Origin: Oscillospiraceae bacterium
GTDB taxonomy: Bacteria > Bacillota > Clostridia > Oscillospirales > Oscillospiraceae
Length of the DNA stretch: 64,000 nt
Assembly: GCA_902790375.1 (NCBI GenBank)
Contig: CADARY010000006.1
Coordinates: 62,001-126,000 of the forward strand
Direction: 5' to 3'
The position numbers were made by a program, and so were the translations under genes. The stretch's first letter is position 1. The number at the start of each line of letters is the position of its first letter. Below the pieces are notes generated by a model. The model did no database searches and was not told the DNA's origin. It was given only the letters and a program-made list of their open reading frames with translations. Below are positions 6,411-28,550 of the stretch, one piece after another.

Positions 6411-7577
6411 TTATTCCGAAAACAGCGCCGTCAGCCGCTTTACTGCCTCCTGCAGAGATTCCCTGCTCGCCGCGAAGGAGAGACGGATGCATTTCTCGCC
6501 GCCCTCGCCGAAGGCGGTGCCGGGCACCACGAGGATCCCTGCCTTTTCAAGGATATAGTCGGCAAGCTGCTCGGAGCTCATGCCCCTGCAGTCGATGCGG
6601 AAAAAGGCGTAGAACGCCCCCTCCGCCCGCGGGCACTCGATGCAGGGGATGGCGTTGAGACCGTCGCAGATGAGGTTGCGCCGCTCCAGATAGCTCAGGC
6701 GCATGCGCTCGGCATCCGCCGCGCAGTCAAGGGCGGCGATGGAGGCGGTCTGGGTGAAGGAGGCGGTGCAGTTGACGGTGTTCTGCTGCAGCTTCAGCAT
6801 GACCTTCGTCAGCTCCGGGGAGGCCGCCGAATAGCCGATGCGCCAGCCAGTCATGGCGGCGCTCTTTGAGAGCCCGTTGAGGGTGATGACCCGGTCCCGG
6901 ATCTCCGGAATGGCGCCGAGGCTCAGGTGCTTGCGCCCGTCGTAAATGAGCTTCTCATAAATTTCATCCGCGATGAGGAGCAGATCATGGGCCAGCACGA
7001 AATCGGCAATGTCCCGCAGCTCCTGCTCCGTCAGCACATGGCCCGTGGGATTGCAGGGGTTGCAGACAATGAGCATCTTGGCGTGCTTTGTTACCTTCGC
7101 CTCCAGCATCTCGCGGGTGACGACAAAGCCGTTGTCGAAGGAGAGCGGCACCGGCACATAGTCCGCCCCCGCCATCAGAATACCGGAGCGGTAGGAGGGA
7201 TAGGCGGGCGTGAGCACCATGCAGGCATCCCCCTCCTGCAGAAAGCAGGTCATGGCGGCATAGAGGGCGAGCTTGGCTCCGGGGGTGACGAGGATGCCGT
7301 CCTCGCTTGCCTCGATGCCGTTTTCCTCCCGCAGCTTCTGTACGATGCGGCGGCGCAGGGCCATGGTCCCGGCGGCGCTGGTGTAGTGGGTGTCGTTGCG
7401 GCGGATAGCCTCGATGGCGGCGTCCTTCACCGCCTCGGGCGTGTCAAAATCCGGTTCCCCGGCGGCAAAGGAGAGAACGTCGATCCCCTCCTCCTTCATG
7501 CGGATGCCCCTGGCGTTGAGCGCCACGGTGGGGGAGCCGCCGGCAAGCTTCATTCTTCTGGCTTCAAAATCTCTCAT
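6411..7577 (-). CDS. Pyridoxal-phosphate aminotransferase, aspartate aminotransferase subfamily I-gamma-like
   Basis: The 388-residue enzyme belongs to fold-type I aminotransferases, which swap an amino group between an amino acid and a 2-oxo acid in the cytoplasm. Visible landmarks are NPCNPTG (about 173-179), DEIY (204-207), the PLP-binding lysine in SKSAAMTGWRIGY (Lys238) and a C-terminal IRLSFA with the substrate-binding Arg. Aspartate is the most likely substrate by subfamily, but other amino acids cannot be excluded. The ATG at 7577 matches the usual N-terminus; a longer frame upstream runs into the channel gene and is rejected. It lies 65 bp after the potassium channel gene and may share the cysteine synthase transcript. 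Confidence 0.88.
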   Translation of the reverse strand: MRDFEARRMKLAGGSPTVALNARGIRMKEEGIDVLSFAAGEPDFDTPEAVKDAAIEAIRRNDTHYTSAAGTMALRRRIVQKLREENGIEASEDGILVTPGAKLALYAAMTCFLQEGDACMVLTPAYPSYRSGILMAGADYVPVPLSFDNGFVVTREMLEAKVTKHAKMLIVCNPCNPTGHVLTEQELRDIADFVLAHDLLLIADEIYEKLIYDGRKHLSLGAIPEIRDRVITLNGLSKSAAMTGWRIGYSAASPELTKVMLKLQQNTVNCTASFTQTASIAALDCAADAERMRLSYLERRNLICDGLNAIPCIECPRAEGAFYAFFRIDCRGMSSEQLADYILEKAGILVVPGTAFGEGGEKCIRLSFAASRESLQEAVKRLTALFSE

Positions 7578-7642
7578 GTGTTGGATCACTCCCGTTTTCT
7601 GTTTTCCGGCGGCGCCGGCATTTGTGCGGCGGGGACACAGGC

Positions 7643-8851
7643 TCAGAAGCGCAGCTCTTTCGGCCGCTCCTTGCTGTAGAGGATCACCGTGTCCCCCTCC
7701 ATGAGCTTCATGTCGCCGCGGGGCACCAGCATGGTTCCGCTGCGGCGCACCATCACGATATAGGTCTGGCGCGAAATATCCAGATCCCGGATCAGCGCGC
7801 CGTTCCACTCGTGATCCCGGCCCAGAACGATCTCGCGGAGATCAAACTGCCGGTCGCGCTTGTGCGCCTCGGCGCAGAGCACGAGGGTGTCCCCGGCGCG
7901 CAGGATCACGTCGCCCCGGGGGACGATGATCTCGCCGCTGCGCTGGACGGCCGCGACCATAATGCCGCGCGGCAGCTTCAGATCCCGGATGCACTTGCCG
8001 GGCCAGTCGTCCCGGCCGGTGAGCTCGACATTGATAAAGTGAAGATCAATCTCGGTCGCGTAGTCGCCGTACTGCTTGAAGCGGGAGTACTGCTCGACAA
8101 AGCCGGCGCTGATGATACCGGTGGGGATGGCGACCATCAGCACCCCCAGGAAGGTGATGACGATGCTCACGGCCTTGCCCAGCGGCGTGATGGGATAGAT
8201 GTCCCCGTAGCCCACGGTCAGCAGGGTGGAGACGGACCACCAGATGCCGGAGAAGGCGTTTTTGAAGACCTCCGGCTGGGCGTCATGCTCAAGCGAGTAC
8301 ATGCACAGGCTCGACGCCAGCATCAGCACCCCCAGGATGAAGAAGGAGGAGAGAAGCTGCTGCCGCTTGCCGGCAATGACCTCGGTGATGACGTTGAGCG
8401 AGTCGTAATAGGCGTTGATGCGAAAGAGCCGGAAGATGCGCGCAATGCGAAACAGGCGGAACACCACCGCCCCCGCGGGGAAGAACACCGGCAGATAGTA
8501 GGGGAGGAAGGAGAGCAGGTCCACGATGCCGGAGAAGGAGAAGATATATTTCAGAAGACTCTTTCCCTCGGGCAGATCGGGGTAGAGATTGTTCGCCGTG
8601 AAAAGGCGCAGCGCGTAGTCCAGCGCGAAGAAGGCCACCGTGATGGCCTCCAGCTTATACAGCAGCGGGCCGAAGTCGGCCACCATCCTGTCGAAGGTGA
8701 GCGCAAAGGTGACGACGAGGTTTATCAGCAGAGCGAGGGTGCTGATAATGTCGTAGCTGCCGTTGATGGGATCGTCCACCACGCCGACGGAGACCATGCG
8801 GAAAATCCGCTGCCGCAAGAGGGCAAGGCCGTTTTGTTTCTTGTTTTTCAT
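7643..8851 (-). CDS. Voltage-gated-type potassium channel with two TrkA-C (RCK_C) domains
   Basis: The 402-residue protein has six membrane segments: S1-S3 between residues 35 and 120, an S4 with regularly spaced arginines (RLFRIARIFRLFRI, about 132-145), S5 (about 165-185), a pore loop with the selectivity filter TVGYGD (212-217) and S6. The cytoplasmic tail holds two TrkA-C-like ligand-binding domains (about 265-330 and 340-402), so gating by a small ligand as well as voltage is plausible. It lies 12 bp after cysK, a compact operon. A potassium channel between cysteine synthase and an aminotransferase has no obvious metabolic link. Confidence 0.9.
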   Translation of the reverse strand: MKNKKQNGLALLRQRIFRMVSVGVVDDPINGSYDIISTLALLINLVVTFALTFDRMVADFGPLLYKLEAITVAFFALDYALRLFTANNLYPDLPEGKSLLKYIFSFSGIVDLLSFLPYYLPVFFPAGAVVFRLFRIARIFRLFRINAYYDSLNVITEVIAGKRQQLLSSFFILGVLMLASSLCMYSLEHDAQPEVFKNAFSGIWWSVSTLLTVGYGDIYPITPLGKAVSIVITFLGVLMVAIPTGIISAGFVEQYSRFKQYGDYATEIDLHFINVELTGRDDWPGKCIRDLKLPRGIMVAAVQRSGEIIVPRGDVILRAGDTLVLCAEAHKRDRQFDLREIVLGRDHEWNGALIRDLDISRQTYIVMVRRSGTMLVPRGDMKLMEGDTVILYSKERPKELRF

Positions 8852-15982: not shown

Positions 15983-16027
15983 CTGAAAGGGCCATATTCC
16001 CAATATAAGGGAATATGGCCCTTTCAG
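15983..16027 (-). terminator. Very strong hairpin after the prepilin gene
   Basis: A 19-bp perfect stem (15983-16001 with 16009-16027) and 7-nt loop lie 56 bp after the prepilin stop. On the minus strand a run of seven T follows about 10 nt after the stem, so it probably ends the prepilin transcript. Confidence 0.65.
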
Positions 16028-16083
16028 GAAACTGCTGCTGCCCGTCCTCTTCCCGGAGAGTATGGGCGGCATGATAGACTAAG

Positions 16084-16470
16084 TTAGTGAACAGTAACCA
16101 CGCCTGTTTTAGTATCAACAGAAACGGTGTAACTATTTCCGACGGTCTTATAGGGAACCTTAACTCCGCCATTACTACCCGACTTGCCCTGAGAAATAAT
16201 GGCTTCATCCTGTTCACCCTGGCTCTGCCATTTTTCAATCGTCTGCTTCGCGGGAACGTGGATATCGTCAATTGCGGTCGAGTTGTCGCCGGTTAGATAA
16301 GCGGCCATCTGCTCAGCGTAAGCGGAACGGACGTTGGCAAGGTCGGTAGCCTCACGGCTCTTCTCAAGCTGGGAAGTGAATACGGGGATAGCGATGGCGA
16401 CGAGGACGGCGATGATCGCAACAACGATCAGCAGCTCGGCCAGGGTAAAGCCTTTGTTGTTTTTCTTCAA
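16084..16470 (-). CDS. Type IV prepilin / pseudopilin
   Basis: The 128-residue precursor begins MKKNNKG followed by FTLAELLIVVAIIAVLVAI, the class III signal that prepilin peptidase cleaves after Gly and methylates at Phe. The Glu at mature position 5 is present. The mature protein is a short pilin-like subunit with no disulfide cysteines. The start is TTG at 16470, 8 nt after GGAGG; no ATG fits. No pilus assembly ATPase, platform protein or peptidase is in the window, so it is an orphan subunit that must use machinery encoded elsewhere. It is preceded by a leader of more than 400 nt and followed by a strong hairpin. Confidence 0.88.
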   Translation of the reverse strand: MKKNNKGFTLAELLIVVAIIAVLVAIAIPVFTSQLEKSREATDLANVRSAYAEQMAAYLTGDNSTAIDDIHVPAKQTIEKWQSQGEQDEAIISQGKSGSNGGVKVPYKTVGNSYTVSVDTKTGVVTVH

Positions 16471-16898
16471 ATCAGTATCCTCCTTAATATGTATTTTGTT
16501 AAAATTTATTTCCTGGCTACCGGGAATAGCCTTAGAAACCTTTCCGATACCCGCGCTGACGGGCGGGGCTTTCGGCGCGGCCTCTTCCGCTCTGTGGGCT
16601 GGAAAAAGGCGCAGCATTGTCCGGCAACACGGTGAGCCACCGTTTTCCCGGAACTGCGGGAGAGAAGAACGAAGGGACAGGAGTGCGAAGAACAACAAGG
16701 GCTCAGCCCATGCCGCTCCGAATAAACGCCGCAATCACCCTGCCGCCCGGGCAGGCGTCCCGCTTCTGTCCGCAGCAACAGCGGACCCGCAAAGCGCCGG
16801 AAAAGACGCGCCTTTTTCCAACCCGCAGAAGATAAACGCAGCAAGGGGAACGCCGTTACCCTTCCGTACAGCACCGGATCGCTTTTCCTGTGCTCCGT
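16471..16898 (-). promoter_or_regulatory. Long structured 5' leader of the prepilin gene
   Basis: About 430 nt separate the promoter from the TTG start. The leader has several GC-rich hairpins, for example around 16621-16651 (CGGTGAGCCACCG) and 16741-16757 (CCTGCC with GGCAGG). An open frame of 144 codons crosses it on the same strand but has no ribosome binding site or family match. Cyclic-di-GMP riboswitches precede pilin genes in some Clostridia, but I do not see the conserved GEMM core, so the element stays unassigned. Confidence 0.45.
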
Positions 16899-16905
16899 TA
16901 TGATG

Positions 16906-16934
16906 ATTATAACACAGTCGCCTGTGGAAAGCAA
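16906..16934 (-). promoter_or_regulatory. Promoter of the prepilin gene
   Basis: Minus strand TTGCTT (16934-16929) and TATAAT (16911-16906), 17-bp spacer. The bases around the -10 (GTGTTATAATCAT) are shared with the DUF6465 promoter at 37838. Confidence 0.7.
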
Positions 16935-17013
16935 TAACAAATCCGGAGAATTTTACAAATTGTAACTTTTAGACATCCCGTCTGCGCAGGCCGGGCAGGC
17001 TTCTGTCAGAGGT

Positions 17014-17460
17014 TTACAGCGCCGCCCTGATCTTTTCGATCATGTCGGCGTATTCCGCGTCGCTTAAAAAGACCCTGCCGGGGTTCATGGCGAACACGCC
17101 GCCCCACTCAAAGCCGTCTTTATACTTGGGCACAAGGTGCATGTGCAGGTGGCAGCCCGTGTCGCCGTAGGCGCCGTAATTGAGCTTCTCCGGGTGGAAG
17201 GCCGCGTGGATGGCTTTGGCGGCGCGGTGCACATCGGCAAAGAAGGCGTTGCGCTCCGCCTCCGTGATGTCGGTGATCTCGCTCACATGGTCCTTGTAGG
17301 CCACGATGCAGCGGCCGGGGTGGCTCTGCTCCTTGAAGAGGATGAGCTGGCTCACGTTCAGATCGCAGATCTTGATGCCGAAGGCGCCCAGCAGCTCCCC
17401 GCCCATGCAGTAGCCGCAGGCCTCTCTCGGGGCGGCCTTCTGTCTTTCTTCCAGTGTCAT
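17014..17460 (-). CDS. HIT-family nucleotide hydrolase/transferase-like protein
   Basis: The 148-residue protein carries the histidine triad HLHMHLV near residues 117-123, the active site of HIT proteins that act on nucleotide phosphoramidates or AMP conjugates. An N-terminal CGYC pair could bind zinc. The ATG at 17460 is preceded by AAGGGAG at 8 nt; an ATG at 17484 is possible but has a poor site. As the last gene of the acyl-ligase operon it could hydrolyse acyl-adenylates released by the ligase, which is inference from context. Confidence 0.83.
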   Translation of the reverse strand: MTLEERQKAAPREACGYCMGGELLGAFGIKICDLNVSQLILFKEQSHPGRCIVAYKDHVSEITDITEAERNAFFADVHRAAKAIHAAFHPEKLNYGAYGDTGCHLHMHLVPKYKDGFEWGGVFAMNPGRVFLSDAEYADMIEKIRAAL

Positions 17461-17480
17461 GTCGATTGCTCCCTTTCCAT

Positions 17481-17954
17481 TCATAATTCTTTTCCCTGTT
17501 TGCCGCTGAGATGCTCGATCTCGAGGGCCAGCACGCACAGGGCCCCGGAAGTGCGCATCTCGCGCTGAAAGGCTTCCTCCCCCTCGTGGGGAGAATACTT
17601 GCCCGCGAGCGCCCGCATGATATCCTCGATCTCCGCGGGCTCCGTGACCTCCCGGACCCGGCCGAAGACGATGGCGCTGCGGTATTTGGTGGTGAACTTC
17701 CCGGGCAGAACCTCGTCCCGGTCGATGACGCAGAAGCTCGCCTTGTCGCAGGCGCGCACGGCGTCCAGCTTGTGGCCTGAGCGCGCGCAGTGGAAGTACA
17801 GCCGCCCGCCGTAATACACATAGCTCAGCGGCACGGCGTAGGGATAGCCCCCGTCGCCCAGCACGGCGAGCGTGCCGGAGGTGTTCCTCTCCAGAATCTC
17901 CAGGGTCTCAGGCCCGGAGAGGGCCTGCCGGCCTCTTCGCATTTCACGAAACAT
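17481..17954 (-). CDS. NimA-like pyridoxamine-phosphate-oxidase-fold flavoprotein
   Basis: The 157-residue protein starts MRRGRQ after a short MFRE extension and contains GYPYAVPLSYVYYGGRLYFH and ARSGHK, matching the nitroimidazole-resistance (Nim) branch of the split-barrel flavin-binding family. Such proteins bind FMN and may act as reductases, though most are uncharacterised. It lies 16 bp after the thioesterase gene and overlaps the end of the reading that precedes the HIT gene, so it is part of the five-gene operon. The role within a lipid operon is unknown. Confidence 0.8.
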   Translation of the reverse strand: MFREMRRGRQALSGPETLEILERNTSGTLAVLGDGGYPYAVPLSYVYYGGRLYFHCARSGHKLDAVRACDKASFCVIDRDEVLPGKFTTKYRSAIVFGRVREVTEPAEIEDIMRALAGKYSPHEGEEAFQREMRTSGALCVLALEIEHLSGKQGKEL

Positions 17955-17970
17955 GGGTAACCGCCTTTCT

Positions 17971-18681
17971 TTATCGGTATTCCATCACCATGCGGAAAAT
18001 CTTCTTTTCCCCGTCGCCGCTGATGTAAAAGCAGTCGCCGGCCTCTTCCACCGCGACGCTGAGCTTTTCGCCGAGGCAGGCCTCGCATGCGTATTCCACC
18101 GACGCCCGGCAGAGCCGCCGCCCTGCCGCCGCCGCGGGGATCAGATCCTCCGCAAGGTCAAAGTAGCGGGTGTTGTTCATGTGGCCGTTCAGGTCCACAT
18201 AGCTGAAAGGCACCGTGAAAGTCTGCGCCTCCCCGCCGGAAGCCCTGCGGGGGGTGGAGGGCAGGGCGGTCTCCTCGCCGGTCTCGACCCCCTCGATCAC
18301 GATGCCGTGGCGGTCGGGGAAGACCATGCGCCTTGTCCCGGCATCCACCAGCGCCCAGAGAGAGCTTGCGCGCAGAAGCACCTGCCCCTGCTCGTCCAGC
18401 ACGCGGTAAAAGCGGGGGAAGAGCAGGTGCAGGGTTTTCCCGGGCCAGGATTCCAGCGTGATGCGCTCGTCATATGCCGGCATGCGCGTGATCTCGGCCT
18501 GCTGGTGGGTGACCATCCACAAAAGCCCCCGGTCCAGGGTCATCTCCCGGCCCATGCCCAGCTCCTCGGTATGGCGGATGGAGGCCTCCTGCATCAGCTC
18601 GAAGAGGGTGGAGGTGCGCAGGACGCGGTGGAGGTTCACATCCCGGTTGCGCAGGCGAAGCTGCGTGGAATAGATACTCAT
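17971..18681 (-). CDS. Acyl-ACP thioesterase (FatA/FatB-like)
   Basis: The 236-residue protein is a double hot-dog thioesterase that should release fatty acids from acyl carrier protein. The N-terminal hot dog includes the FELMQEASIRHTEELG helix; the second half has DLNGHMNNTRYFD (Asn and His of the active site, about residues 168-180) and an ASVEY segment. The ATG shares its A with the ACP stop codon (TAATG), so translation is coupled. Together with the free-standing ACP and ligase it can load, hold and release an acyl chain. Confidence 0.86.
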   Translation of the reverse strand: MSIYSTQLRLRNRDVNLHRVLRTSTLFELMQEASIRHTEELGMGREMTLDRGLLWMVTHQQAEITRMPAYDERITLESWPGKTLHLLFPRFYRVLDEQGQVLLRASSLWALVDAGTRRMVFPDRHGIVIEGVETGEETALPSTPRRASGGEAQTFTVPFSYVDLNGHMNNTRYFDLAEDLIPAAAAGRRLCRASVEYACEACLGEKLSVAVEEAGDCFYISGDGEKKIFRMVMEYR

Positions 18682-18929
18682 TACTTCGGCAGACGCTTCA
18701 TGATGGCGTCGGCCACGTCGCCCACGGTGCTGAGCTTCTGCCACTGCCGCTCGGGGATGCGCACGTCAAACATGGCCTCCAGCTTACAGATGACCAGGAT
18801 AAAGCCCATGGAGTCAATGGCGGTCTCGGTGTTGATGACGGTGTCCTCCCTGAGGTCCACAGGGGCCATTTCGGGCACGCAGTCACGGATGACCTGGCAG
18901 ATCTTTTCGATTACTTCTTCTCTATTCAT
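18681..18929 (-). CDS. Acyl carrier protein, dedicated
   Basis: The 82-residue acidic helical protein has DSMGF with Ser40, the site for the 4'-phosphopantetheine arm. It is short, stands alone and is coupled at both ends: its ATG overlaps the ligase stop (ATGA) and its stop overlaps the thioesterase start. This marks a dedicated carrier and not the housekeeping fatty-acid ACP, which normally sits with fab genes. GGAGG lies 4 nt before the ATG at 18929. Confidence 0.92.
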   Translation of the reverse strand: MNREEVIEKICQVIRDCVPEMAPVDLREDTVINTETAIDSMGFILVICKLEAMFDVRIPERQWQKLSTVGDVADAIMKRLPK

Positions 18930-20275
18930 AATGCCTCCATTCTCTGTTGGAGTTCCCAACGCTTTATTTTCCCCGTGGCCGTGCGCGGCAGGGGGCTTGA
19001 CGAAAGGATGATCTCGCTCAGCTGCCTGCCCCGGGGCTGGGTCTCCATGAGGGGCCGGAGCTTCTTTTCGATTTCCTGCCTGTCTCCCTCGCCGGCATAC
19101 ACCAGCGCAGGCTTTCCGTTTCGGAGGATCACGGCGATCTCCGGGTTCCCGAGGGCCTGCATGACAGCCCCCTCGTACTCCGGCAGAAAGAGCTTGGTGC
19201 CGTCCGACAGAACGAGCATGTCCTTCTTGCGCCCTGTGATATGGAGCCTGCCCTCTTCATCGAAGCGGCCGAGGTCCCCGCTGTACAGGACGCCGTCCCG
19301 CAGGACCGCCGCCGTGTCCGCCGGGCGCTTGTAGTAGCCCTGCATCATGCAGGTGGGGGCCTGAATGAGGATCTCCCCGTCCTCCGCGAGGGTGATGGTA
19401 TCGTCCGGGCAGACCTCCATGGCAAAGGGGTCGCCCCCCACGCTGATGGCGACGCCGGAGCTGGTCTCGGTCAGGCCGTAGCCGAAGCTCACGCGCAGGC
19501 CCTTTGCCGCCGCCGCGTCCAGCAGCGCCTTCGGGCAGTCGCCCGCGCCCACCAGCACAAGCCTGAGCTGCGGGTTTATCAGCTCCCGCTGCAAAAGAAA
19601 GCCCAGCAGCATCGGCACCACGGACACCGCCGTGGGCTTAAAGAAGGCGCAGTCGTCGGCATAATGGCGCGCGCCGCGGCCCAGCGCCACGGACGCCCCG
19701 CAGCTCAGACCCCAGAGAAGCCCGCACACAAAGCCGAACACATGTCCCAGCGGCAGCAGGCACAGGAGCCTGTCCCCCGGGTGCAGCGGGAGCATGGCCC
19801 CGCCGTTGTAAGCGCTCTGGCAGAGGGAATGATCGGTCAGCACCACGGCCTTGGCCTGCTCCGTGGTGCCGGAGGTGAAGAAGAGGAGCCTGCCTGCGCC
19901 CTCCTTCACGCCGTCCGTCAGGTACGGCCGCAGCTCCTCGCAGAGCTCCGCGTCGCCCCAGAGCCTGTCCGCATCCGTGTAGCGCAGAAGCTTTCCCAGG
20001 GTCTCGTCCGGCAGGCCCGCGTCCAGCATCACGATCTGCAGCCCTGCCTCGGCCGCGGCGAAGATCTCCGTCACGCAGGCAAGACTTCCGTCCGAAAGAA
20101 TGCCGATGCAGCTCCCGCCGTCCTCCTTCAGCTCCTGCGCCCGGCGCGTGACCGCGTCGTAAAGCGCCGCAAAGCTCATGGTCTTCTGCCCGCGCTCGTC
20201 ATACGCAAGCGCCGGCGCCGCGGGCGTTTCCTCCGCCCAGTGGCGGAGCATGTGGGAAAAGGATGCAAACCGCAA
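18926..20275 (-). CDS. AMP-dependent acyl ligase (acyl-ACP synthetase-like)
   Basis: The 449-residue ANL-superfamily enzyme activates a carboxylic acid with ATP and probably loads it on the adjacent ACP. Motifs are the phosphate loop FFTSGTTEQAKAV (about 155-168), GYGLTETSSG, YSGDLGRFDEEG and the C-terminal catalytic lysine in TATGKIKRW. The protein is short for the family and its substrate is unknown; a fatty or unsaturated acid is inferred from the neighbours. I start it at TTG 20275, 7 nt after GGGAGG, since no ATG precedes the conserved N-terminus. Confidence 0.86.
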   Translation of the reverse strand: MRFASFSHMLRHWAEETPAAPALAYDERGQKTMSFAALYDAVTRRAQELKEDGGSCIGILSDGSLACVTEIFAAAEAGLQIVMLDAGLPDETLGKLLRYTDADRLWGDAELCEELRPYLTDGVKEGAGRLLFFTSGTTEQAKAVVLTDHSLCQSAYNGGAMLPLHPGDRLLCLLPLGHVFGFVCGLLWGLSCGASVALGRGARHYADDCAFFKPTAVSVVPMLLGFLLQRELINPQLRLVLVGAGDCPKALLDAAAAKGLRVSFGYGLTETSSGVAISVGGDPFAMEVCPDDTITLAEDGEILIQAPTCMMQGYYKRPADTAAVLRDGVLYSGDLGRFDEEGRLHITGRKKDMLVLSDGTKLFLPEYEGAVMQALGNPEIAVILRNGKPALVYAGEGDRQEIEKKLRPLMETQPRGRQLSEIILSSSPLPRTATGKIKRWELQQRMEAL

Positions 20276-20333
20276 ACGGCCACCTCCCTTCACGGTTTCA
20301 GTAACCCGTGCTGAATATTGTTGCTCTGCTGAT

Positions 20334-20362
20334 ACTATATCATAGCGCGCCCCCGATGGAAA
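20334..20362 (-). promoter_or_regulatory. Candidate promoter of the ligase-ACP-thioesterase operon
   Basis: Minus strand TTTCCA (20362-20357) and TATAGT (20339-20334), 17-bp spacer. On the plus strand a TATAAT at 20411-20416 could serve the divergent isomerase operon; its -35 (TTGTAC at 20390) is 15 bp away and weak. Confidence 0.45.
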
Positions 20363-20506
20363 GAGATTTTTTTCGCAGAACGCCCGAAATTGTACACTCG
20401 CCGCGAATTGTATAATGCATTTTTCACAGTTTTGTTGTATCTTTAACATAGAAGCGAAGGCACAAAAATCAGGCGGAAAAACTACTTAGAATAAATGGAG
20501 GCAATT

Positions 20507-21934
20507 ATGGACAAAAACATTCGCATCTGCATCGTCGGCGGCGGCCCTGCCGGCCTCTCCGCAGGCATGTACCTCGAGAAAAAGGGCTACACCAACTACA
20601 CGATCCTCGAGCGCTCCGACCGCGTCGGCGGCAAGTGCTGGTCCCCGCACTTTAACGGCAAGCGCTATGAGATGGGCGCCATCATGGGCGTGCCCTCCTA
20701 CTACGCCGTGCACGATGTGGAGGAGTTCTGCGGCATCACCCACGACGGCCCGAAGCTCAACCGCAACTACAAGGATGCCAGGGGCAACGTCATCGAGCCC
20801 TTTGAGCCCAAGAAGAACCCCCTCAAGATCCCGCGCCTGCTGAAAATGAAAAAGCAGGTCAAGAAGTTCGGCGAGCTGCTGGAGACCAAGTACAAGGGCT
20901 ATGACCTCAACGGCCACCGCGGCGTTGCCGAGGGGCGGTATGAGGGCTTCGCCGTCACCCCCGGCCGTGAAAAGGTCGAGGGCTACAACTCCAACCTCAA
21001 GGATCTGGCCCTGCCCTTCAAGGAATTCTGCGAGATGAACGGCGTCGAGCTCGTACAGGATATCTGGATCGGGCCCTACACCTCCTTCGGCTACGGCTAC
21101 TTTGACGAGATCCCCGCGGCCTACGTCCTGAAGTATCTGGACTTCCAGACCACGATGAACTTCGTCAAGGTCAATCTCTGGACCTGGGAGCAGGGAACCC
21201 AGTATATCTGGGAGCAGCTCAATGAGCACATCGCCCACCCCGCCCGCCTCAACTCCGAGATCACCAGGGTCGAGCGTAAGGACGGCAAGGTCTATGTCAC
21301 CGTCAACGGCATGGTCGAGGAGTATGACAAGATCATCGTCACCGCCCCGCTCTATGTGGCCGACGGCAACATGGGCAACAACAACGGCATGGTCGATTAC
21401 TTTGACGCCCGCGACGATGAGAAGGAGCTCTTCTCCAAGATCGACTACGAGCGCTACACCGTCCAGGCCATCACCACCACCCCCGAGAACCACCCCGAGA
21501 TCTCCTACTATGTCTTCGACAACATGGTGCCCGAGAAGCTCGGCCATCTGATGGTCTACTACCGCCGCTGGAAGGAGAACATCGACCAGGTCATCACCAC
21601 CTACGCGCTGCGCACCCACAAGCGCATGAAGGAGATCCCCTACGACAAGTGCAACGAGATGGTGCTGGAGGATCTCAAGACCATGCACAACCCCGCCAAG
21701 GAGGTCATCAACAAGTGGTCCGTATACTACTTCCCCCATGTCTCCTGCGAGGACTACGCCGCCGGCTGGTATGACAAGGTCGAGGCCATGCAGGGCAAGT
21801 ATGACACCTACTACGCCGGCGAGGTCATGTCCTTCGGCGACATGGACGAGACCGCCGATCCCGCGAGCTGGTGGAGCGCTTCTTCTGAAATCCGCTTTTT
21901 ACTCTTGGCTCTCCCCGAAGGGGGAGCCAAGTAA
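20507..21934 (+). CDS. Polyunsaturated fatty acid isomerase-like flavoprotein, 3' end probably frameshifted
   Basis: A flavin-containing amine-oxidase-fold protein with the dinucleotide-binding motif GGGPAGLSAGMYLEKKG near the N-terminus. Stretches such as RVGGKCWSPHFNGKRYEMGA, the FGYGYFDEIPAAYVLKYLDF region and the SVYYFPHVS region recall, from memory, the polyenoic fatty acid isomerase (PAI, linoleate 10E,12Z isomerase) of Cutibacterium acnes. It would move double bonds in polyunsaturated fatty acids by hydride transfer to FAD. The ATG at 20507 has GGAGG 5 nt upstream. The frame ends in an unnatural tail after DETADP. Adding one C in the run at 21860-21862 would give RELVERFF and a TGA at 21886, a typical end for the family. 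First of three oxidoreductase genes. Confidence 0.82.
   Translation: MDKNIRICIVGGGPAGLSAGMYLEKKGYTNYTILERSDRVGGKCWSPHFNGKRYEMGAIMGVPSYYAVHDVEEFCGITHDGPKLNRNYKDARGNVIEPFEPKKNPLKIPRLLKMKKQVKKFGELLETKYKGYDLNGHRGVAEGRYEGFAVTPGREKVEGYNSNLKDLALPFKEFCEMNGVELVQDIWIGPYTSFGYGYFDEIPAAYVLKYLDFQTTMNFVKVNLWTWEQGTQYIWEQLNEHIAHPARLNSEITRVERKDGKVYVTVNGMVEEYDKIIVTAPLYVADGNMGNNNGMVDYFDARDDEKELFSKIDYERYTVQAITTTPENHPEISYYVFDNMVPEKLGHLMVYYRRWKENIDQVITTYALRTHKRMKEIPYDKCNEMVLEDLKTMHNPAKEVINKWSVYYFPHVSCEDYAAGWYDKVEAMQGKYDTYYAGEVMSFGDMDETADPASWWSASSEIRFLLLALPEGGAK
21904..21931 (+). other. Hairpin between isomerase and saturase-like genes
   Basis: CTTGGCTC-T-CCCC pairs with GGGGGAGCCAAG around a short loop. As read now it lies inside the isomerase tail; with the frameshift corrected it is intergenic. 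No T run follows, so it may tune mRNA stability between the genes. Confidence 0.55.
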
Positions 21935-21966
21935 TCTTTTACAATTCCTTTTGAAAGGACAACAAC

Positions 21967-23523
21967 ATGAAATTCTACAAAGACCATTATGACGTGGTCA
22001 TCATCGGCGGGGCGCTGGCCGGCATGTCCGCCTGCCTGCAGCTGCAGGCCTGGGGCATCAAGGACATCCTGATCCTCGAAAAGCACAACATGCCCGGCGG
22101 CCTTGCCACCGACTTTGTGCGCAACGGCTTCGAGATCGAGGCCACCCTGCATGAGATGATGTCCATCGGCCAGCCCGGCAAACGCCTCAAGGTCGGCCAG
22201 TTCTTCGACGATATGGGCGTCAAGGTCGACTGGCTGCCCGTGCACGAGTGCTACCGCGTCGCCCTGCCGAACTCCGGCATCGACAAGATCCTGCACCATG
22301 ACTATGACGACAGCTATACCACCGTCGCCAAAGAGGTCAACGAGGTCTGCCCCGGCACCTATGACAAGGTGCATGAGCTGATGTGCCTCTGCCGCCGGGT
22401 CTACGACAGCATGAACTACCTCTCCACCCACCCGATGGGCAAGCTGTCCATGCTGATCCATCACCCCGATTTCGTCAGGACCGTGGGCTACACCGCGACC
22501 GAGGTCATCAATACCTTCAACCTGCCGAAGAAGGCCGTCGAAATGCTGACGCCGTACTGGATCTACGTCGGCAACCGCATGGACGATCTGCCCTTCACCA
22601 TCTACGCCTTCCTGATGGCCGACTACTTCACCGGCTCCTATGTCTGCCGCGGCTTCAGCCATGAGATGAGCCTGAAGCTCCAGACCAAGTGCGAGGAAAA
22701 CGGCGCGCAGTACGAGTTTAACCAGGAGGTCGAAAAGATCCTGGTCAAGGACGGCAAGGTATACGGCGTGCGCACCCGCCGCGGGGATGAGATCCACTGT
22801 GACTATGTCATCTCCGGCCCCTATCCCAACCGCGTTTACAGCCAGATGATCGAGCCGAAAAGCGAGGTGCCCGAGGGCGCCATCCGGATGATCAACAACC
22901 GCAAGCTCTCCGTGGTCCCCGTGTCCGTCATCATGGTCATCGAGGGCACGCCCGAGGAAAACGGCATCATCAACTACTCCACCTTCTCCGGCACCACCAT
23001 GGACACCAACGAGATCTGGCGCAACTACTCCAATCTCACCGAGCCCTATAACTACATCACCACCATCTGCCTGAACTACGCCAACCCCGGCCTGCCGGAG
23101 GGCTACACCCAGCTCTCCATCACGGCGCTCGTCCCCTCCAAGCCCTTTGAGAGCGTGACGGAGGAGGAGTACCACGATCTCAAGCGCCGCCTGGCCAAAG
23201 AGATGATCGACGAGTGCATCAAGATCACGAAGGTGGACTTCACCCACCGCATCACCGAGATCGAGGTCACCACACCCATGACCGTCTCCCACTATGTGGG
23301 GGCCTGGAAGGGCAACATCTACGGCTATCTCCACTCCATGGAGGACCATGCGGTGGCGAGACTGCAGATGAAGGAGCAGGATCATTTCATTGAAGGCCTG
23401 GAGTTTGCCGGCGCCCACGGCATGTCCGGCGACGGCATGGGCCCGCAGATCACCAACGGCCGCGCCGCAGCCAAGGCCGTGAAGGAAGACATGGACAAGA
23501 AAAAGGAGGCGGCGAAGAAATGA
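21967..23523 (+). CDS. CrtI/retinol-saturase-like FAD oxidoreductase
   Basis: The 518-residue protein has an N-terminal FAD-binding motif (VVIIGGALAGMSAC) and a C-terminal FAGAHGMSGDGMGPQ segment, typical of the phytoene desaturase/saturase superfamily. These enzymes add or remove hydrogens at isolated or conjugated double bonds in lipids. Placed between an isomerase-like protein and a ferredoxin-type reductase it is best read as a saturase acting on an isomerised fatty acid, which is inference. AAAGGA precedes the ATG. Its end overlaps the next gene by four bases (ATGA). Confidence 0.82.
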   Translation: MKFYKDHYDVVIIGGALAGMSACLQLQAWGIKDILILEKHNMPGGLATDFVRNGFEIEATLHEMMSIGQPGKRLKVGQFFDDMGVKVDWLPVHECYRVALPNSGIDKILHHDYDDSYTTVAKEVNEVCPGTYDKVHELMCLCRRVYDSMNYLSTHPMGKLSMLIHHPDFVRTVGYTATEVINTFNLPKKAVEMLTPYWIYVGNRMDDLPFTIYAFLMADYFTGSYVCRGFSHEMSLKLQTKCEENGAQYEFNQEVEKILVKDGKVYGVRTRRGDEIHCDYVISGPYPNRVYSQMIEPKSEVPEGAIRMINNRKLSVVPVSVIMVIEGTPEENGIINYSTFSGTTMDTNEIWRNYSNLTEPYNYITTICLNYANPGLPEGYTQLSITALVPSKPFESVTEEEYHDLKRRLAKEMIDECIKITKVDFTHRITEIEVTTPMTVSHYVGAWKGNIYGYLHSMEDHAVARLQMKEQDHFIEGLEFAGAHGMSGDGMGPQITNGRAAAKAVKEDMDKKKEAAKK

Positions 23524-24710
23524 GCATCAAAGTCAAGGGCTTCTTCCAGGACATCGGCGGGGCCTCCCGCGTCGTCAAGCTCAGAGAGGAAAACTTCGCC
23601 AAGGGCTCTCCCGTCCCCGATCCCCGGGACCCCATCCGCGAGGTGGCGGACCTGCTGCATCCGGAGCATATGCTCTTCAAGGTCGTGGACATCCGCGAGG
23701 CCTCTCCCAGCTCCCGCACCTTCCGCTTTGAATCCGTCGACGGGCACATCCCCGTGTTCCAGAGCGGCCAGTATGTGAACTTCCGCTTCAAAATCGGCGA
23801 GAGCATGCTCTCCCGCCCTTACACCATCTCCTCCGCCCCCTTCGAGGCGCGAGGCGAGCACCCCTTCTTCGAGATCACCGTGCGCCGCAATGTCTCCTAC
23901 TTTGTGCCGGACTACCTCTTTGAGAACGTCAGGGTGGGCGACACTCTGGAGGGCGCGCTGCCCTTCGGCTTCTTCTACTGGGAGCCCCTGCGCGACACGA
24001 GGGAGCTCGTGGCCCTGGCCGGCGGCTCGGGCATCACGCCCTTCCACTCCATGGCCAAGGAGATCGCCTGCGGCAAGATGAAGGGCGTCAAGCTCACGAT
24101 CCTCTACGGCTCCGTGAAGGCCAACGACATCGTCCTCAAGGACGAGCTTGCCAAAATCGAAGCCGACTGCCCCGACGTCAAGGTCGTGCACGTCCTCTCC
24201 GACGAGCCCGACTGGCCCGGCGAGAAGGGCTTTATCACCAGGGAGATCATCGAGAAGTACTCCACGCCCGACTGCACCTACATGTTCTGCGGCCCGCTGC
24301 CCATGTTCCGCTTTGTCAAGAAGGCGCTTGATGAGATGGGCGTGCCCGTGCGCCGCTTCCGCCACGACGTGGTCAATAACCCAGCCGACGTTTCCACGCT
24401 CCCGGGCTACCCCAAGGGCACAGAGACCAAAACCTTCAAGATCACGGTCGTGCGCGGCATCCATGAGGATGTGATCGACGCGAAGGCCTCCGAGCCGGTG
24501 GCCGTCTCCCTCGAGCGCGCCGGCATCGCCATCGACACCCACTGCCGCAACGGCGAGTGCGGCTTCTGCCGCAGCCACCTGTTGTCCGGTGAGATCTTTG
24601 TCTCCCCGATCGGCGACGGGCGGCGCATGATGGACAAGGAAATGGGCTGGTTCCACGCCTGCTCCTCCTGGCCGCTCACGGACCTGAAGATCAAGATCCC
24701 CATTATGTAA
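23520..24710 (+). CDS. NAD(P)H oxidoreductase with FAD, nucleotide-binding and 2Fe-2S domains
   Basis: The 396-residue protein has an N-terminal extension of about 50 residues, a ferredoxin-reductase-type FAD barrel (RPYTISSAPF, about 99-108), an NAD(P)-binding part (AGGSGITPFHSM) and a C-terminal plant-type 2Fe-2S domain with CRNGECGFC and a distal Cys in FHACSSW. It should pass electrons from NAD(P)H through FAD to the cluster and then to a partner, most simply the flavoprotein encoded just upstream. It is translationally coupled to that gene and followed by a terminator, closing the three-gene operon. Confidence 0.88.
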   Translation: MSIKVKGFFQDIGGASRVVKLREENFAKGSPVPDPRDPIREVADLLHPEHMLFKVVDIREASPSSRTFRFESVDGHIPVFQSGQYVNFRFKIGESMLSRPYTISSAPFEARGEHPFFEITVRRNVSYFVPDYLFENVRVGDTLEGALPFGFFYWEPLRDTRELVALAGGSGITPFHSMAKEIACGKMKGVKLTILYGSVKANDIVLKDELAKIEADCPDVKVVHVLSDEPDWPGEKGFITREIIEKYSTPDCTYMFCGPLPMFRFVKKALDEMGVPVRRFRHDVVNNPADVSTLPGYPKGTETKTFKITVVRGIHEDVIDAKASEPVAVSLERAGIAIDTHCRNGECGFCRSHLLSGEIFVSPIGDGRRMMDKEMGWFHACSSWPLTDLKIKIPIM

Positions 24711-24719
24711 CGATGCAAA

Positions 24720-24760
24720 GGGAGCCGTCTCAAAGCGAGGCGGCTCCCCATATTTTTGTT
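24720..24760 (+). terminator. Terminator of the isomerase-saturase-reductase operon
   Basis: Stem GGGAGCCG (24720-24727) with CGGCTCCC (24741-24748), followed by CATATTTTTGTTT. Confidence 0.88.
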
Positions 24761-24762
24761 TA

Positions 24763-24909
24763 GGCAACACCGCACAATCCGCCTTCGGCATCTCCTGGAA
24801 AATTTGCGCTCTGATTTCGTCACTTTTTCTTGAGGTACACAATACGATTCGCTTCGCTCAAACCCAAATTTTCTCAGGATCTGCTCTTGCCGAATTATGC
24901 GGTATTGCC
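24763..24909. repeat. Dispersed palindromic repeat family 1, copy A (MITE-like)
   Basis: The 147-bp copy begins GGCAACACCGCACAATCCG and ends with the inverted form GAATTATGCGGTATTGCC. It shares long identical stretches with copy D (57101-57223) and, inverted, with copy C (41021-41126). It is non-coding. Its last base touches the -35 of the acetyltransferase promoter. Confidence 0.85.
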
Positions 24910-24938
24910 TTTACACTTTGCCCCGCATCCCATATAAT
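24910..24938 (+). promoter_or_regulatory. Promoter of the sugar acetyltransferase gene
   Basis: TTTACA (24910-24915), 17 bp, TATAAT (24933-24938), immediately next to repeat copy A. Confidence 0.8.
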
Positions 24939-24963
24939 AGGCAGAGAGAAAGGGGGCTGCGCC

Positions 24964-25572
24964 ATGTTTGACGTGCTGCACAGCGGCGCGCTGTATTACC
25001 CGCTGGCCGGGGAGATCACCGAGGAACAGACCCGGTGCCTGGAGAAGCTTTACGACTATAACCACACCCGCCCAAGCGAGGGAGCGCGGCGGGAGGCCAT
25101 GCTGCGGGACATGTTCGCAGCCTTCGGCGAGGGCTCGTATATCGAGCCGCCCCTGCACGCCAACTGGGGCGGGCGCTTTGTCTCCTTCGGCAAAAACGTC
25201 TACGCCAATTTCGGCCTCACGCTGGTGGACGATACCTATATCCGGGTGGGGGATAACTGCATGTTCGGCCCCAACGTCGTCATCGCCACGGCGGGGCACC
25301 CCATCCTGCCTGCGCTTCGGGAGCAGGGCCTGCAATATAACGCCCCTGTCCGCATCGGGAAAAACTGCTGGCTCGGCGCGGGCGCCCTCGTGATGCCGGG
25401 GGTCACCATCGGCGATAACAGCGTCATCGGCGCGGGCAGCGTGGTGACGCGGGATATCCCCTCAAATGTCGTGGCGGCGGGCAATCCCTGCCGCGTGCTG
25501 CGCCCCGTCGGGGAGCGGGACCGGCAGTTCTACTTCCGCGATAAAGCCATCCCGCCGGAGCTTCTGGACTGA
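24964..25572 (+). CDS. Maltose/galactoside O-acetyltransferase-like (LbH hexapeptide repeat) enzyme
   Basis: The 202-residue protein has the N-terminal Mac helix region followed by left-handed beta-helix hexapeptide repeats (IRVGDN, VRIGKN, VTIGDN, VIGAGS) and the active-site ATAGHP histidine. This is the LacA/Maa family, which acetylates sugars with acetyl-CoA in the cytoplasm. The exact sugar is not predictable. GGGGG precedes the ATG at 24964. Its stop is directly adjacent to the stop of the convergent metallopeptidase-like gene. Confidence 0.88.
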   Translation: MFDVLHSGALYYPLAGEITEEQTRCLEKLYDYNHTRPSEGARREAMLRDMFAAFGEGSYIEPPLHANWGGRFVSFGKNVYANFGLTLVDDTYIRVGDNCMFGPNVVIATAGHPILPALREQGLQYNAPVRIGKNCWLGAGALVMPGVTIGDNSVIGAGSVVTRDIPSNVVAAGNPCRVLRPVGERDRQFYFRDKAIPPELLD

Positions 25573-26412
25573 TCAGGGGAAGATCCTGAGAAGCAGGGCA
25601 AAGATGTCCTGCCCCTCTTCGCGCGCCCTTTCGATGCGCGCGGCGTACTCGTCGATCAGGGCGTTGACGCGGCGTACCGCATCGCCGAGCTCCTCTGCCG
25701 CGGCATAGTGGCTCAGACGGCCGCCCTCCCGGAACACGCCGTCCTCCACTCCGAGGAAAAGGCGGGCAAGATGCCTGTCGCAGCGCCCGAAGGCCGCCAT
25801 GAGACCGATGCTGTCCGCGATCACCTCGTCCCGCAGGGCGTCGATATCCTCCGGATAAAGACCCCGGCAGGTAAAATGCGTGAGCTCATGGAACTTCCGG
25901 ATGAGATAGGATTTCTCCTTCCACTCCTCCGCGGAGAGGCCCACGGCCTCGGGCGGGACGTTGCTGTAATAGCCGCCGCTCAAGAGGATCACGCTGTCCC
26001 GGTAGTTCTTTTTCTCCGCCGTGAAGCGCGCAAACTCCGCGTCCCAGTCGCCTCCGCCTGCGCCGAGATATTCGTCGCGGTGCGTATGGATCTTTTCCCA
26101 GTTGATGAGGCCCCCGATCGTGACGGCGCCGACGGAGTCCGGGATGGGCGTCGGCTCACAGCGGTAGGCCAGGGCCTGATAAGCCTGCAAAAAATCCTGC
26201 CTGTCTCCGAAGTACAGGATCTCAGCCCGCCCTGCCGGGGTGTCCGCCGTCTCGGCGCGAAACGCCTCGCAACAGCGGAAGTGCGGCTGCGTATCCGGGA
26301 TCTCGCCGCCGAGCACGGCGTTTTTGTATTCCTCCGTCTGGCGCATCCCCGCCCGGATGGGCAGCAGAAGCTGCGGATAGCGCCGCGCGATTTTCAGAAG
26401 AGCTTCCTGCAT
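25573..26412 (-). CDS. Uncharacterised protein with an HExxH zinc-peptidase motif
   Basis: The 279-residue soluble protein contains HELTH (175-179) followed 17 residues later by Glu196 in LRDEVIADSIG, the arrangement of gluzincin-type metallopeptidases. The flanking helix FHELTHFTCRGLYPEDIDALRDE is well formed. I do not recognise a named peptidase family, and no signal peptide or membrane segment is present, so it should act inside the cell. The ATG at 26412 has GGAGG 5 nt upstream. It is divergent from the FUSC-type transporter gene. Confidence 0.7.
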   Translation of the reverse strand: MQEALLKIARRYPQLLLPIRAGMRQTEEYKNAVLGGEIPDTQPHFRCCEAFRAETADTPAGRAEILYFGDRQDFLQAYQALAYRCEPTPIPDSVGAVTIGGLINWEKIHTHRDEYLGAGGGDWDAEFARFTAEKKNYRDSVILLSGGYYSNVPPEAVGLSAEEWKEKSYLIRKFHELTHFTCRGLYPEDIDALRDEVIADSIGLMAAFGRCDRHLARLFLGVEDGVFREGGRLSHYAAAEELGDAVRRVNALIDEYAARIERAREEGQDIFALLLRIFP

Positions 26413-26498
26413 GCGTACCTCCTGCCTTTGCTTATAATGCTCATTTTCCGCTGATTATTACCTTTTTCCGCACGCCGCGTCAATGAAAGGAAAAAGCG

Positions 26499-27818
26499 AT
26501 GAACAAACTGCAAACCAAGCGCCCGATCTATCTGCCGAGGATCGGGCAGCGCATCGTCAAAACGAGTATCGCCGTGCTGATCACGCTCCTGGTCTACTAT
26601 CTGCGGGGCTACCGCGGGGCCGACATGCCCGCCGAGGCCGCCATCACCGCCATCATCTGCATGCAGCCCTATGTGCACGACACGCGCGAATACGCCATGA
26701 GCCGCTTTATCGGCACGCTGATCGGCGCGGCCTGGGGCCTGGGCTTTCTGCTGCTGATGCTCGTCTTTCCCCGTATGGGGGAGGTGCTGCTGCTCGTGTA
26801 CCTGCGCATGGCTGTCGGCGTGATGCTGACGCTCTACACCTGCGTGCTGGTGCGCAGGCCCGACACGGCGGGGCAGGCGGCCATCGTCTTCATCTGCGTG
26901 GTCATCGCCTTTCCCGAGATCGAAGAGCCGCTGCAGCAGGCCCTCACCCGCTTTGGCGGGGTGCTGCTCGGCACCGCCGCCGCGATCGTGGTCAACGTCT
27001 TCCGCCTGCCGCGGGACAAGGAGCGCAGCCTTGTCTTTTTCATCAAGCTCTCCGACCTGCTGCCGGATCGCTTCTCGCAGCTGCCTGCGGCGGCGCTCTT
27101 TCGCCTCAACTATCTCTACAATGACGGGGCAAAGATCTGCATCATGTCCGAGCATGCCCCCGCCTTCTTCACCCTGAGCCTGAGCCAGGCGAAGCTGAGC
27201 GTGCCCTTTATCGTCATGGACGGGGCCGCCATCTACGACGCCAATGAGAATACCTACCTGCGCTCCGAGACCCTGGAGCCTGCCGAGACCGAGCACCTGC
27301 GCGCCCGTCTGGACGCCCTGGGCCTGAGCTACTTCCTCTATACGATCCACAACGGCAAGGTCTGCATCTTCCACCAGGGGGAGATGCGGGAGCAGGAGCA
27401 GGCCATTTATGAGAACATGAAACGCTCCCCCTACCGCAGCTATCTGGAGGGGGAGATCTGCCGGGCGGAGGAAATCGTCTACCTCAAGGTCATCGACCGG
27501 GACGACAGGATCCGCATGCTGGAGAAGAAGCTGCGCCGGGAGCTGCGGGGACGGAAGCTCCGCGTCGTCATGCGGGAGGAGCATTCCGTCCCCGGAGTCA
27601 GCAGCCTCTACTTCTACACCGCCGCCGCCGCGATGCCCCTCGCGGAAAAGCGCCTCATGGCCATCCTTCGGGAGAAGGAGCCGAAGCTGCGGGCGCGGGA
27701 GGTGTTTCTGGAGACCCCTTACCAGACGGAGCATGACGCCATGCACCTGCTGCACCGGCTCACCAATCTCTATGAGCCGCTCAAGATCCTCCGCCTGTTC
27801 CAGCGAAAAGCCAAATAA
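26499..27818 (+). CDS. FUSC/ArAE-type membrane protein fused to a degenerate HAD (Cof-like) domain
   Basis: Residues 1-170 form six membrane segments like the N-terminal half of aromatic acid exporters (FUSC family). The rest (about 175-439) follows the order of a Cof-type HAD phosphatase: a GAKICIMSEH strand where AxxTGR is normal and a VPFIVMDGAAIYD segment where 'NGA.IYD' is normal. The first HAD motif (DxDGT) is replaced by a region reading IKLSDLL, so both catalytic aspartates are missing. I infer a transporter with a pseudo-phosphatase sensor domain. AAAGGA precedes the ATG at 26499. Confidence 0.72.
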   Translation: MNKLQTKRPIYLPRIGQRIVKTSIAVLITLLVYYLRGYRGADMPAEAAITAIICMQPYVHDTREYAMSRFIGTLIGAAWGLGFLLLMLVFPRMGEVLLLVYLRMAVGVMLTLYTCVLVRRPDTAGQAAIVFICVVIAFPEIEEPLQQALTRFGGVLLGTAAAIVVNVFRLPRDKERSLVFFIKLSDLLPDRFSQLPAAALFRLNYLYNDGAKICIMSEHAPAFFTLSLSQAKLSVPFIVMDGAAIYDANENTYLRSETLEPAETEHLRARLDALGLSYFLYTIHNGKVCIFHQGEMREQEQAIYENMKRSPYRSYLEGEICRAEEIVYLKVIDRDDRIRMLEKKLRRELRGRKLRVVMREEHSVPGVSSLYFYTAAAAMPLAEKRLMAILREKEPKLRAREVFLETPYQTEHDAMHLLHRLTNLYEPLKILRLFQRKAK

Positions 27819-27863
27819 TCAAAACCGGGCGCCCGAAAGCATGCGGGGATAAAACGGACTGCG

Positions 27864-28550
27864 TCACTTCGCCCGCGGGTACTCGGTGCACAGCAGGCGA
27901 TAGGGCGGCTCGTCCTCCTCGATGGCGGGGAAGCGGCCCACCGGAGGGTTGAAGCGGTTGTCGTTGGCGTCGTCGTTGACCTGGCTCACCTCGCCGAGCA
28001 GCACCGGGCCTGTGCCTTTTTCTACCTCGAAATCGTGGTAGAGACCGGGCGTGATGCTGATGCTCTGCCCCGGGCGGAGCTTTACCTGCGACCCGGCGGG
28101 GACGGTGACCGTGCGCCCGTCGAGATGGACGGTGACGGGGCTTTCTTTGTCGAGCGCTTCATCCGGCAGGGAGTTGTAGACCCGGATCAGCACCGTCCCG
28201 CCGCCGCGGTTGATGATGTCCTCCATCTTTGCCCAGTGAAAGTGCATGGGGCTGTATTGCCCCTCCCGGAGGTACAGGAGCTTTTCGGCGTAGGTCTTGG
28301 GGTACTGATCCGGCTTCTTGAGGTTGCCGTTCCTCAGTGTGATGAGGGAGAAGCCTACCTCGTCAAACCTTCCGAGACCATAGTCTGTAATATCCCAGCC
28401 AAGCAGGTTATCGCGTATTTCATCGTACTCATGGCCCTTGCTCTGCCATTCCTCCGGGGTGAAATGGCAGAAATCGGGCAGGGGAAAACGGCAGTCCCGG
28501 ATCATCTGCTCCATCTCCCGGAGCGCGGCATTGATCTCACTGCGTTTCAT
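27864..28550 (-). CDS. D-lyxose ketol-isomerase
   Basis: The 228-residue cupin enzyme interconverts D-lyxose and D-xylulose. Metal ligands are visible as His103 and His105 in PMHFHW, Glu110 in KMEDI and His172 in PGLYHDFE. Length and the WDITDYGLG region match the YdaE-type D-lyxose isomerase family. It lies 12 bp after the kinase gene, with AAGGAGG before the ATG at 28550, so isomerase and kinase form a pair that can feed lyxose or a related pentose into the pentose phosphate pathway. Confidence 0.88.
   Translation of the reverse strand: MKRSEINAALREMEQMIRDCRFPLPDFCHFTPEEWQSKGHEYDEIRDNLLGWDITDYGLGRFDEVGFSLITLRNGNLKKPDQYPKTYAEKLLYLREGQYSPMHFHWAKMEDIINRGGGTVLIRVYNSLPDEALDKESPVTVHLDGRTVTVPAGSQVKLRPGQSISITPGLYHDFEVEKGTGPVLLGEVSQVNDDANDNRFNPPVGRFPAIEEDEPPYRLLCTEYPRAK

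Follow-up and report, generated by a model that had tools for sequence, protein, structure and literature searches.

Do the genes at this locus move, and then remove, the double bonds of dietary polyunsaturated fatty acids (PUFA)? To our knowledge, few of the genes responsible for the hydrogenation of such double bonds in the rumen have been identified. In the window (the whole 64,000-nucleotide stretch of DNA from Oscillospiraceae bacterium analysed here), an earlier note had read three genes as an operon for isomerisation and then hydrogenation of PUFA: ORF1, likened to the polyenoic fatty acid isomerase (PAI) of C. acnes; ORF2, described as a CrtI/saturase-like flavoprotein (CRTI); and ORF3, described as an NAD(P)H-FAD-2Fe-2S reductase (RED). 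We found all three frames open on the plus strand at the positions proposed for them (Table 1), with sequences resembling ribosome-binding sites upstream of ORF1 and ORF2 and with the stop codon of ORF2 overlapping the ATG of ORF3 (ATGA). Isomerisation followed by reduction stands as the natural reading of these genes, but a second half of the cluster had been overlooked: genes for an acyl ligase, an acyl carrier protein (ACP) and a thioesterase form a coupled trio on the minus strand, stops overlapping starts, divergent from PAI-CRTI-RED. The functional unit reaches leftwards to 17971 and consists of six genes.

Table 1. Coordinates of the six genes and of the noncoding elements of the cluster, in positions of the window.
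Feature	Coordinates	Strand	Basis or remark
Acyl-ACP thioesterase (TE)	17971..18681	-	probable start 18681
Dedicated acyl carrier protein (ACP)	18681..18929	-	probable start 18929
AMP-dependent acyl ligase	18926..20275	-	probable TTG start 20275; longest frame to 20449
Divergent intergenic region with -10-like sequences	20276..20506		
ORF1, PAI-family fatty acid isomerase	20507..21934	+	phmmer to 2b9w, conserved residues, tail comparison
12-pair hairpin between PAI and CRTI	21904..21931	+	z -4.35
ORF2, CRTI, CrtI/CrtISO-fold FAD protein, proposed saturase	21967..23523	+	
ORF3, RED, NAD(P)H-FAD-2Fe-2S reductase	23520..24710	+	three Pfam domains, four cluster cysteines
Terminator-like hairpin, 12 pairs, 3' of ORF3	24720..24748	+	z -4.51

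The PPOX/Nim-like and HIT genes to the left (17014-17954) were rejected as members of the cluster: PPOX recurs only in L001, the nearest relative, and HIT in 6 of 80 loci. The PPOX protein (17481-17954, minus strand) is nitroimidazole-reductase-like (Nim), scoring 188 bits to NimIJ, under the cut-off of 270. Further left, a minus-strand reading frame (16084-16734) holds KGFTLAELLIVVAIIAVLVAIAIP, which we take from its motif to be a type IV pilin-like stretch.

Employing phmmer, we matched ORF1 to the PAI structure 2b9w with 453 bits, the match falling into two segments (query 2-138 and 160-450). The next chain scored 34 bits, and a generic amine oxidase was rejected on this comparison; the likeness to C. 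acnes PAI was thus borne out. The two proteins are 47% identical in structure alignment, and 2b9w also ranked first by fold (TM 0.74/0.83) against a predicted model of ORF1, itself of low confidence (mean pLDDT 67). GGGPAG in the window's PAI is the FAD-binding GxGxxG motif. The positions aligned with Arg88, Phe168 and Phe193 of 2b9w, which we presume to be active-site residues, are conserved in 68/69, 71/71 and 71/71 loci, respectively; a literature search for active-site residues of PAI gave nothing. In C. acnes PAI, the arginine holds the free carboxylate of the fatty acid. Because this arginine is conserved, isomerisation would take place on the free acid, ahead of ACP loading. Recombinant C. 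acnes PAI converts free linoleic acid into trans-10,cis-12 CLA, according to the accessible text of PMC2885616. The window's PAI resembles that enzyme in full-length homology and at the three conserved positions, and differs from it in being one of six linked genes.

The 3' end of the window's PAI is altered. Four bases present in L001 are missing near 21860, so that the last residues of ORF1 are out of frame; the frame reads on to 21934, through the intergenic hairpin, whereas the stop codon of the relatives corresponds to about 21886-21888. A tail starting with YS(R/K) and holding RFF was found in 75 of 76 other loci and was absent from the 76th. The four-base gap may reflect either a genuine mutation or a fault of the assembly.

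The trio on the minus strand was assigned by Pfam matches of the ligase to PF00501 (134.6 bits), of the ACP to PF00550 (24.5 bits) and of the thioesterase to PF01643 and PF20791 (70.4 and 33.8 bits, both over cut-off). The catalytic residues of these families are intact. Among aligned relatives, each position of the ligase SGTT motif is conserved in 67/67 and K494 in 63/63; serine 50 of the ACP (numbered from the longest frame) is conserved in 62/62; and in the thioesterase D184, N186 and H188 are found in 61/61 and E221 in 60/60 where readable, these four being, we assume, its catalytic residues. In the window's genome, which is 88.6% complete, PF01643 matches the cluster thioesterase alone, and PF00550 matches at nine places, the cluster ACP and eight others.

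Linkage of the genes is conserved in other genomes. Among the best 80 of 218 relatives, a set of CRTI-bearing loci biased to near kin, RED follows CRTI at 79/79 testable loci (L068 ends inside CRTI and was excluded) and PAI precedes CRTI at 67/70, the count being limited to the 70 loci whose upstream sequence exceeds 1600 bases; the claim that the three genes are coupled and stay together elsewhere therefore held. The same 80 loci come mostly from uncultured Ruminococcaceae, Oscillospiraceae or Clostridiales, and ruminant gut compartments or RUG isolates (RUG presumably standing for rumen genomes) appear in many of their titles. At least 4300 bases upstream were available in 63 loci; PAI is present in 60 of these, jointly with ligase, ACP and thioesterase in 57 of the 60. 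In L034, L040 and L041, PAI loci without the trio, ligase-ACP-thioesterase lies elsewhere in the same genome; in L034 the contig that carries it equals the PAI contig in length, so the trio is probably a few kilobases from the PAI locus. In Baileyella intestinalis RF-744-FAT-WT-3 (L069), the six genes are consecutive on one strand, head to tail, and five of them touch or overlap; PAI, CRTI and RED follow one another within the run.

We also searched samples of genomes from the order, class and phylum, which are less biased than the 80 loci but overlap one another. PAI was found in 3/245 genomes of the order sample (E ≤ 1e-60), 2/391 of the class sample (E ≤ 1e-40) and 1/398 of the phylum sample, the last being the window's own. 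Across the samples there are four distinct PAI genomes (the window's, L118, L119 and L105), and all four carry the six genes together. A thioesterase of the cluster kind (E ≤ 1e-25) occurs in 3/391 class-sample genomes, two of which are the PAI genomes; in the third, no ligase, ACP, PAI or CRTI was found within the 16 kb fetched. The PAI-bearing genome of L077 yielded only a distant thioesterase (25% identity), which counts against full coupling as far as the available sequence of that genome extends; the L077 contig ends 0.5 kb before PAI.

CRTI belongs to the CrtI/CrtISO group, and its fold matches a carotenoid desaturase over the full length. The family part of the earlier description is thereby upheld, and the saturase direction is a proposal. 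Its best NCBIfam match is crtI_fam TIGR02734 (98.6 bits, under the cut-off of 238.1). In relation to carotenoid desaturases and isomerases (CrtI, CrtISO, 4rep), CRTI differs in scoring under the NCBIfam carotenoid cut-offs and in being always paired with a 2Fe-2S reductase. Retinol saturase, grouped with CrtI and CrtISO, is a further system for comparison. RED was confirmed as an NAD(P)H-FAD-2Fe-2S reductase, with FAD_binding_6, NAD_binding_1 and Fer2 at 26.9, 68.8 and 27.1 bits (Pfam cut-offs 21.1, 22 and 21) and with each of the four 2Fe-2S cluster cysteines conserved in 94/94. It has these domains in common with BenC/PaaE-type oxygenase reductases, but it falls under every NCBIfam cut-off (120 bits to BenC, NF040810, against 430), and its partner is a flavoprotein, not an oxygenase.

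In the class sample, CRTI (E ≤ 1e-60) occurs at 17 places in 15/391 genomes, and RED adjoins it at 17/17, down to about 30% identity. Because a 2Fe-2S reductase adjoins every CRTI examined, reduction by CRTI is favoured. The main rival is that CRTI is a reduced-flavin isomerase of the CrtISO kind, cis/trans or positional, with RED keeping its FAD reduced, so that PUFA would be reshaped and not saturated. CRTI does match carotenoid isomerase TIGR02730 over its full length (76 bits, second to crtI_fam and under the cut-off of 586.9), and CrtISO requires reduced FAD. However, the cluster already has an isomerase in PAI, which needs no partner in C. acnes, and a catalytic flavin would hardly call for a dedicated NAD(P)H-2Fe-2S reductase beside each CRTI examined. 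We consider this rival unlikely. In L110 and L112 the order is CRTI-RED-CRTI, with two divergent CRTI copies around one reductase.

We propose that the six genes encode a biohydrogenation pathway for dietary PUFA in rumen and gut Clostridia, and we give this proposal an even chance of being right. PAI would act on free linoleate or linolenate and shift a double bond; the resulting conjugated diene would most likely be of the trans-10,cis-12 kind. Next, at the expense of ATP, the ligase would probably load the acyl chain on the dedicated ACP; RED would pass electrons from NAD(P)H through FAD and 2Fe-2S to CRTI, which would reduce the conjugated diene; and the thioesterase would release the less unsaturated acid. 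The putative order of steps is thus free PUFA, PAI, conjugated diene, ligase/ACP, CRTI with RED, thioesterase, product. The stricter version, in which the chain is hydrogenated while bound to a carrier (PAI forms the C18 conjugated diene, the dedicated ACP carries it, the CrtI-fold enzyme fed by RED saturates it there and the thioesterase releases it), is tentative, and we judge it possible rather than probable. Likely gains for the cell are the removal of toxic PUFA and the disposal of reducing equivalents.

The trio would also be accounted for if the cluster made a conjugated or trans acyl chain that ligase and ACP passed to membrane lipids, with the thioesterase as an editor. Dedicated ligase, ACP and thioesterase genes are what such a route would use, and in L113 a distant CRTI-RED pair is followed by a glycerol-3-phosphate acyltransferase gene. 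However, a scan of ten window proteins gave no acyltransferase family save a sugar-type hexapeptide protein. The diene substrate, moreover, must come from outside if bacteria of this type make no methylene-interrupted dienes, and we know of none that they make. On balance, delivery to membrane lipids has a low probability.

Known systems resemble the proposed biohydrogenation pathway in part. JamABC-type cassettes comprise a dedicated ligase, a dedicated ACP and a desaturase; the ligase attaches the fatty acid to the ACP so that its chain can be modified. The six-gene cluster shares the dedicated ligase and ACP but has flavoproteins as its chain-modifying enzymes, includes a thioesterase and would work in the reductive direction. 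The CLA-HY/DH/DC/ER enzymes of Lactiplantibacillus plantarum, as treated in the accessible text of PMC13365329, likewise form a multi-enzyme linoleate conversion in a gut-type bacterium, but that route starts with a hydratase, unlike the six-gene cluster. A hydratase route was rejected here, no hydratase family being found among the ten window proteins scanned.

CRTI-RED has a wider distribution than the rest of the cluster. In 13 of the 15 CRTI genomes of the class sample, and likewise in L072-L074, neither PAI (E ≤ 1e-40 in the class sample) nor the ACP set accompanies it, so an ACP is not a necessary partner of CRTI; a strict model that requires one meets its main difficulty here. Ligase, ACP and thioesterase tend to accompany PAI, whereas CRTI-RED can exist without PAI and without the trio. 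Ten neighbour proteins, nine of them beside distant CRTI-RED pairs, were scanned: one was RED, two matched nothing, and seven matched a FadR-like GntR regulator, TetR regulators, a glycerol-3-phosphate acyltransferase, an acyl ligase and flavin reductases. These neighbours point loosely to lipid substrates.

A tree was built from 51 CRTI proteins (95 before thinning). Linkage to PAI is confined to a single group in it, which has strong support and contains 39 rows; PAI is present in 34 of these. The linkage label changes four times on this tree, which we read as one gain and three losses (L104; L078; L072-L074); in each of the three, PAI is gone and CRTI-RED is retained. In L104 (9437-10000), PAI residues 368-451 abut thioesterase residues 177-230 beside an intact CRTI-RED, and no ligase or ACP was found; a single deletion has apparently removed most of four genes, sparing CRTI-RED. 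L078 has kept the ligase; PAI is missing from its genome, and ACP and thioesterase from the locus. In the genomes of L072-L074, a search at E ≤ 1e-10 found no PAI, and the only thioesterases were distant ones (26-32% identity). Both the solitary pairs of the class sample and these presumed losses would fit a CRTI-RED that reduces another unsaturated lipid (isoprenoid, sterol or aromatic) and is merely co-located with PAI. Against this, the link to PAI looks ancestral in the close CRTI clade, judged from the tree, and the Baileyella run holds PAI, CRTI and RED without interruption; we regard mere co-location as very unlikely.

Between ligase and CRTI, L078 carries a gene for a DUF5692 membrane protein (6689-7810, minus strand). 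In L079 a 25-residue piece of DUF5692 follows RED, and the L069 genome has a full copy at another site. The case for DUF5692 as a substitute isomerase was too thin, since it stands beside CRTI in L078 only. In L118 (5477-8443, minus strand), PAI is 82% identical to that of the window, against 55% for CRTI and 52% for RED; in L119 the latter two are 76% and 68% identical. This disparity suggests that the CRTI-RED pair of L118 has been exchanged.

A perfect stem of at least 10 pairs was found in the PAI-CRTI interval of 55/76 loci, compared to 25/1440 shuffled copies that preserve base content but not dinucleotides. A T run follows the stem in 11 of the 55. Because the stem is kept while the sequences differ between loci, the hairpin may set the ratio of PAI to CRTI-RED. 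The hairpin at 21904-21931 was rejected as a repeated element, matching only its own site within the window. When the 220 bases upstream of PAI were compared across 68 loci, the -10-like sequence TGTATAAT was present in 45 of them, a raw count without a chance control. On the minus strand, a sigma-70-like site (20362-20334) has 9/12 matches, one of three such sites in the scanned stretch where 1.5 are expected. Rfam models gave no match over 16000-28000.

Rumen homologues of PAI are already known. The accessible part of PMC10019597 reports PAI homologues at 40% or more identity (BLAST) in 7 of 228 rumen MAGs, which belong to Lachnospiraceae, Oscillospiraceae and unclassified bacteria; MAG198, one of the seven, is among three MAGs correlated with trans-10,cis-12 CLA in milk. 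As far as that part extends, gene neighbourhoods are not described, and the term "reductase" is absent from the main text. In the sections available to us, PMC7339423 calls the formers of trans-10 intermediates unclear and names C. acnes as the sole producer among 28 cultured strains; PMC6249431 compares the genome of a Butyrivibrio fibrisolvens strain with other Butyrivibrio species and finds no linoleate isomerase gene in any of them; PMC6037716 treats rumen isomerases as a mixture; PMC13365329 reviews hydratase, MCRA and PAI groups, with "saturase" absent from those sections; and PMC11271093 reviews gut lipids. No report of a PAI-CrtI-reductase or ligase-ACP-thioesterase cluster was found in the open literature as far as it was accessible, which, most subscription papers and preprints lying outside that scope, is weak evidence of absence. 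As far as could be seen, the six-gene cluster is new as a system, its PAI being already known in kind.

The conserved six-gene set in uncultured rumen bacteria looks like machinery for moving, and then removing, the double bonds of dietary plant fatty acids. The compact gene set and a named carrier strain make the question directly testable, and the genes could serve as markers in rumen metagenomes. If true, the carrier-bound route would give ruminal biohydrogenation a genetically defined isomerise-and-saturate form and would account for a source of trans-10 intermediates.
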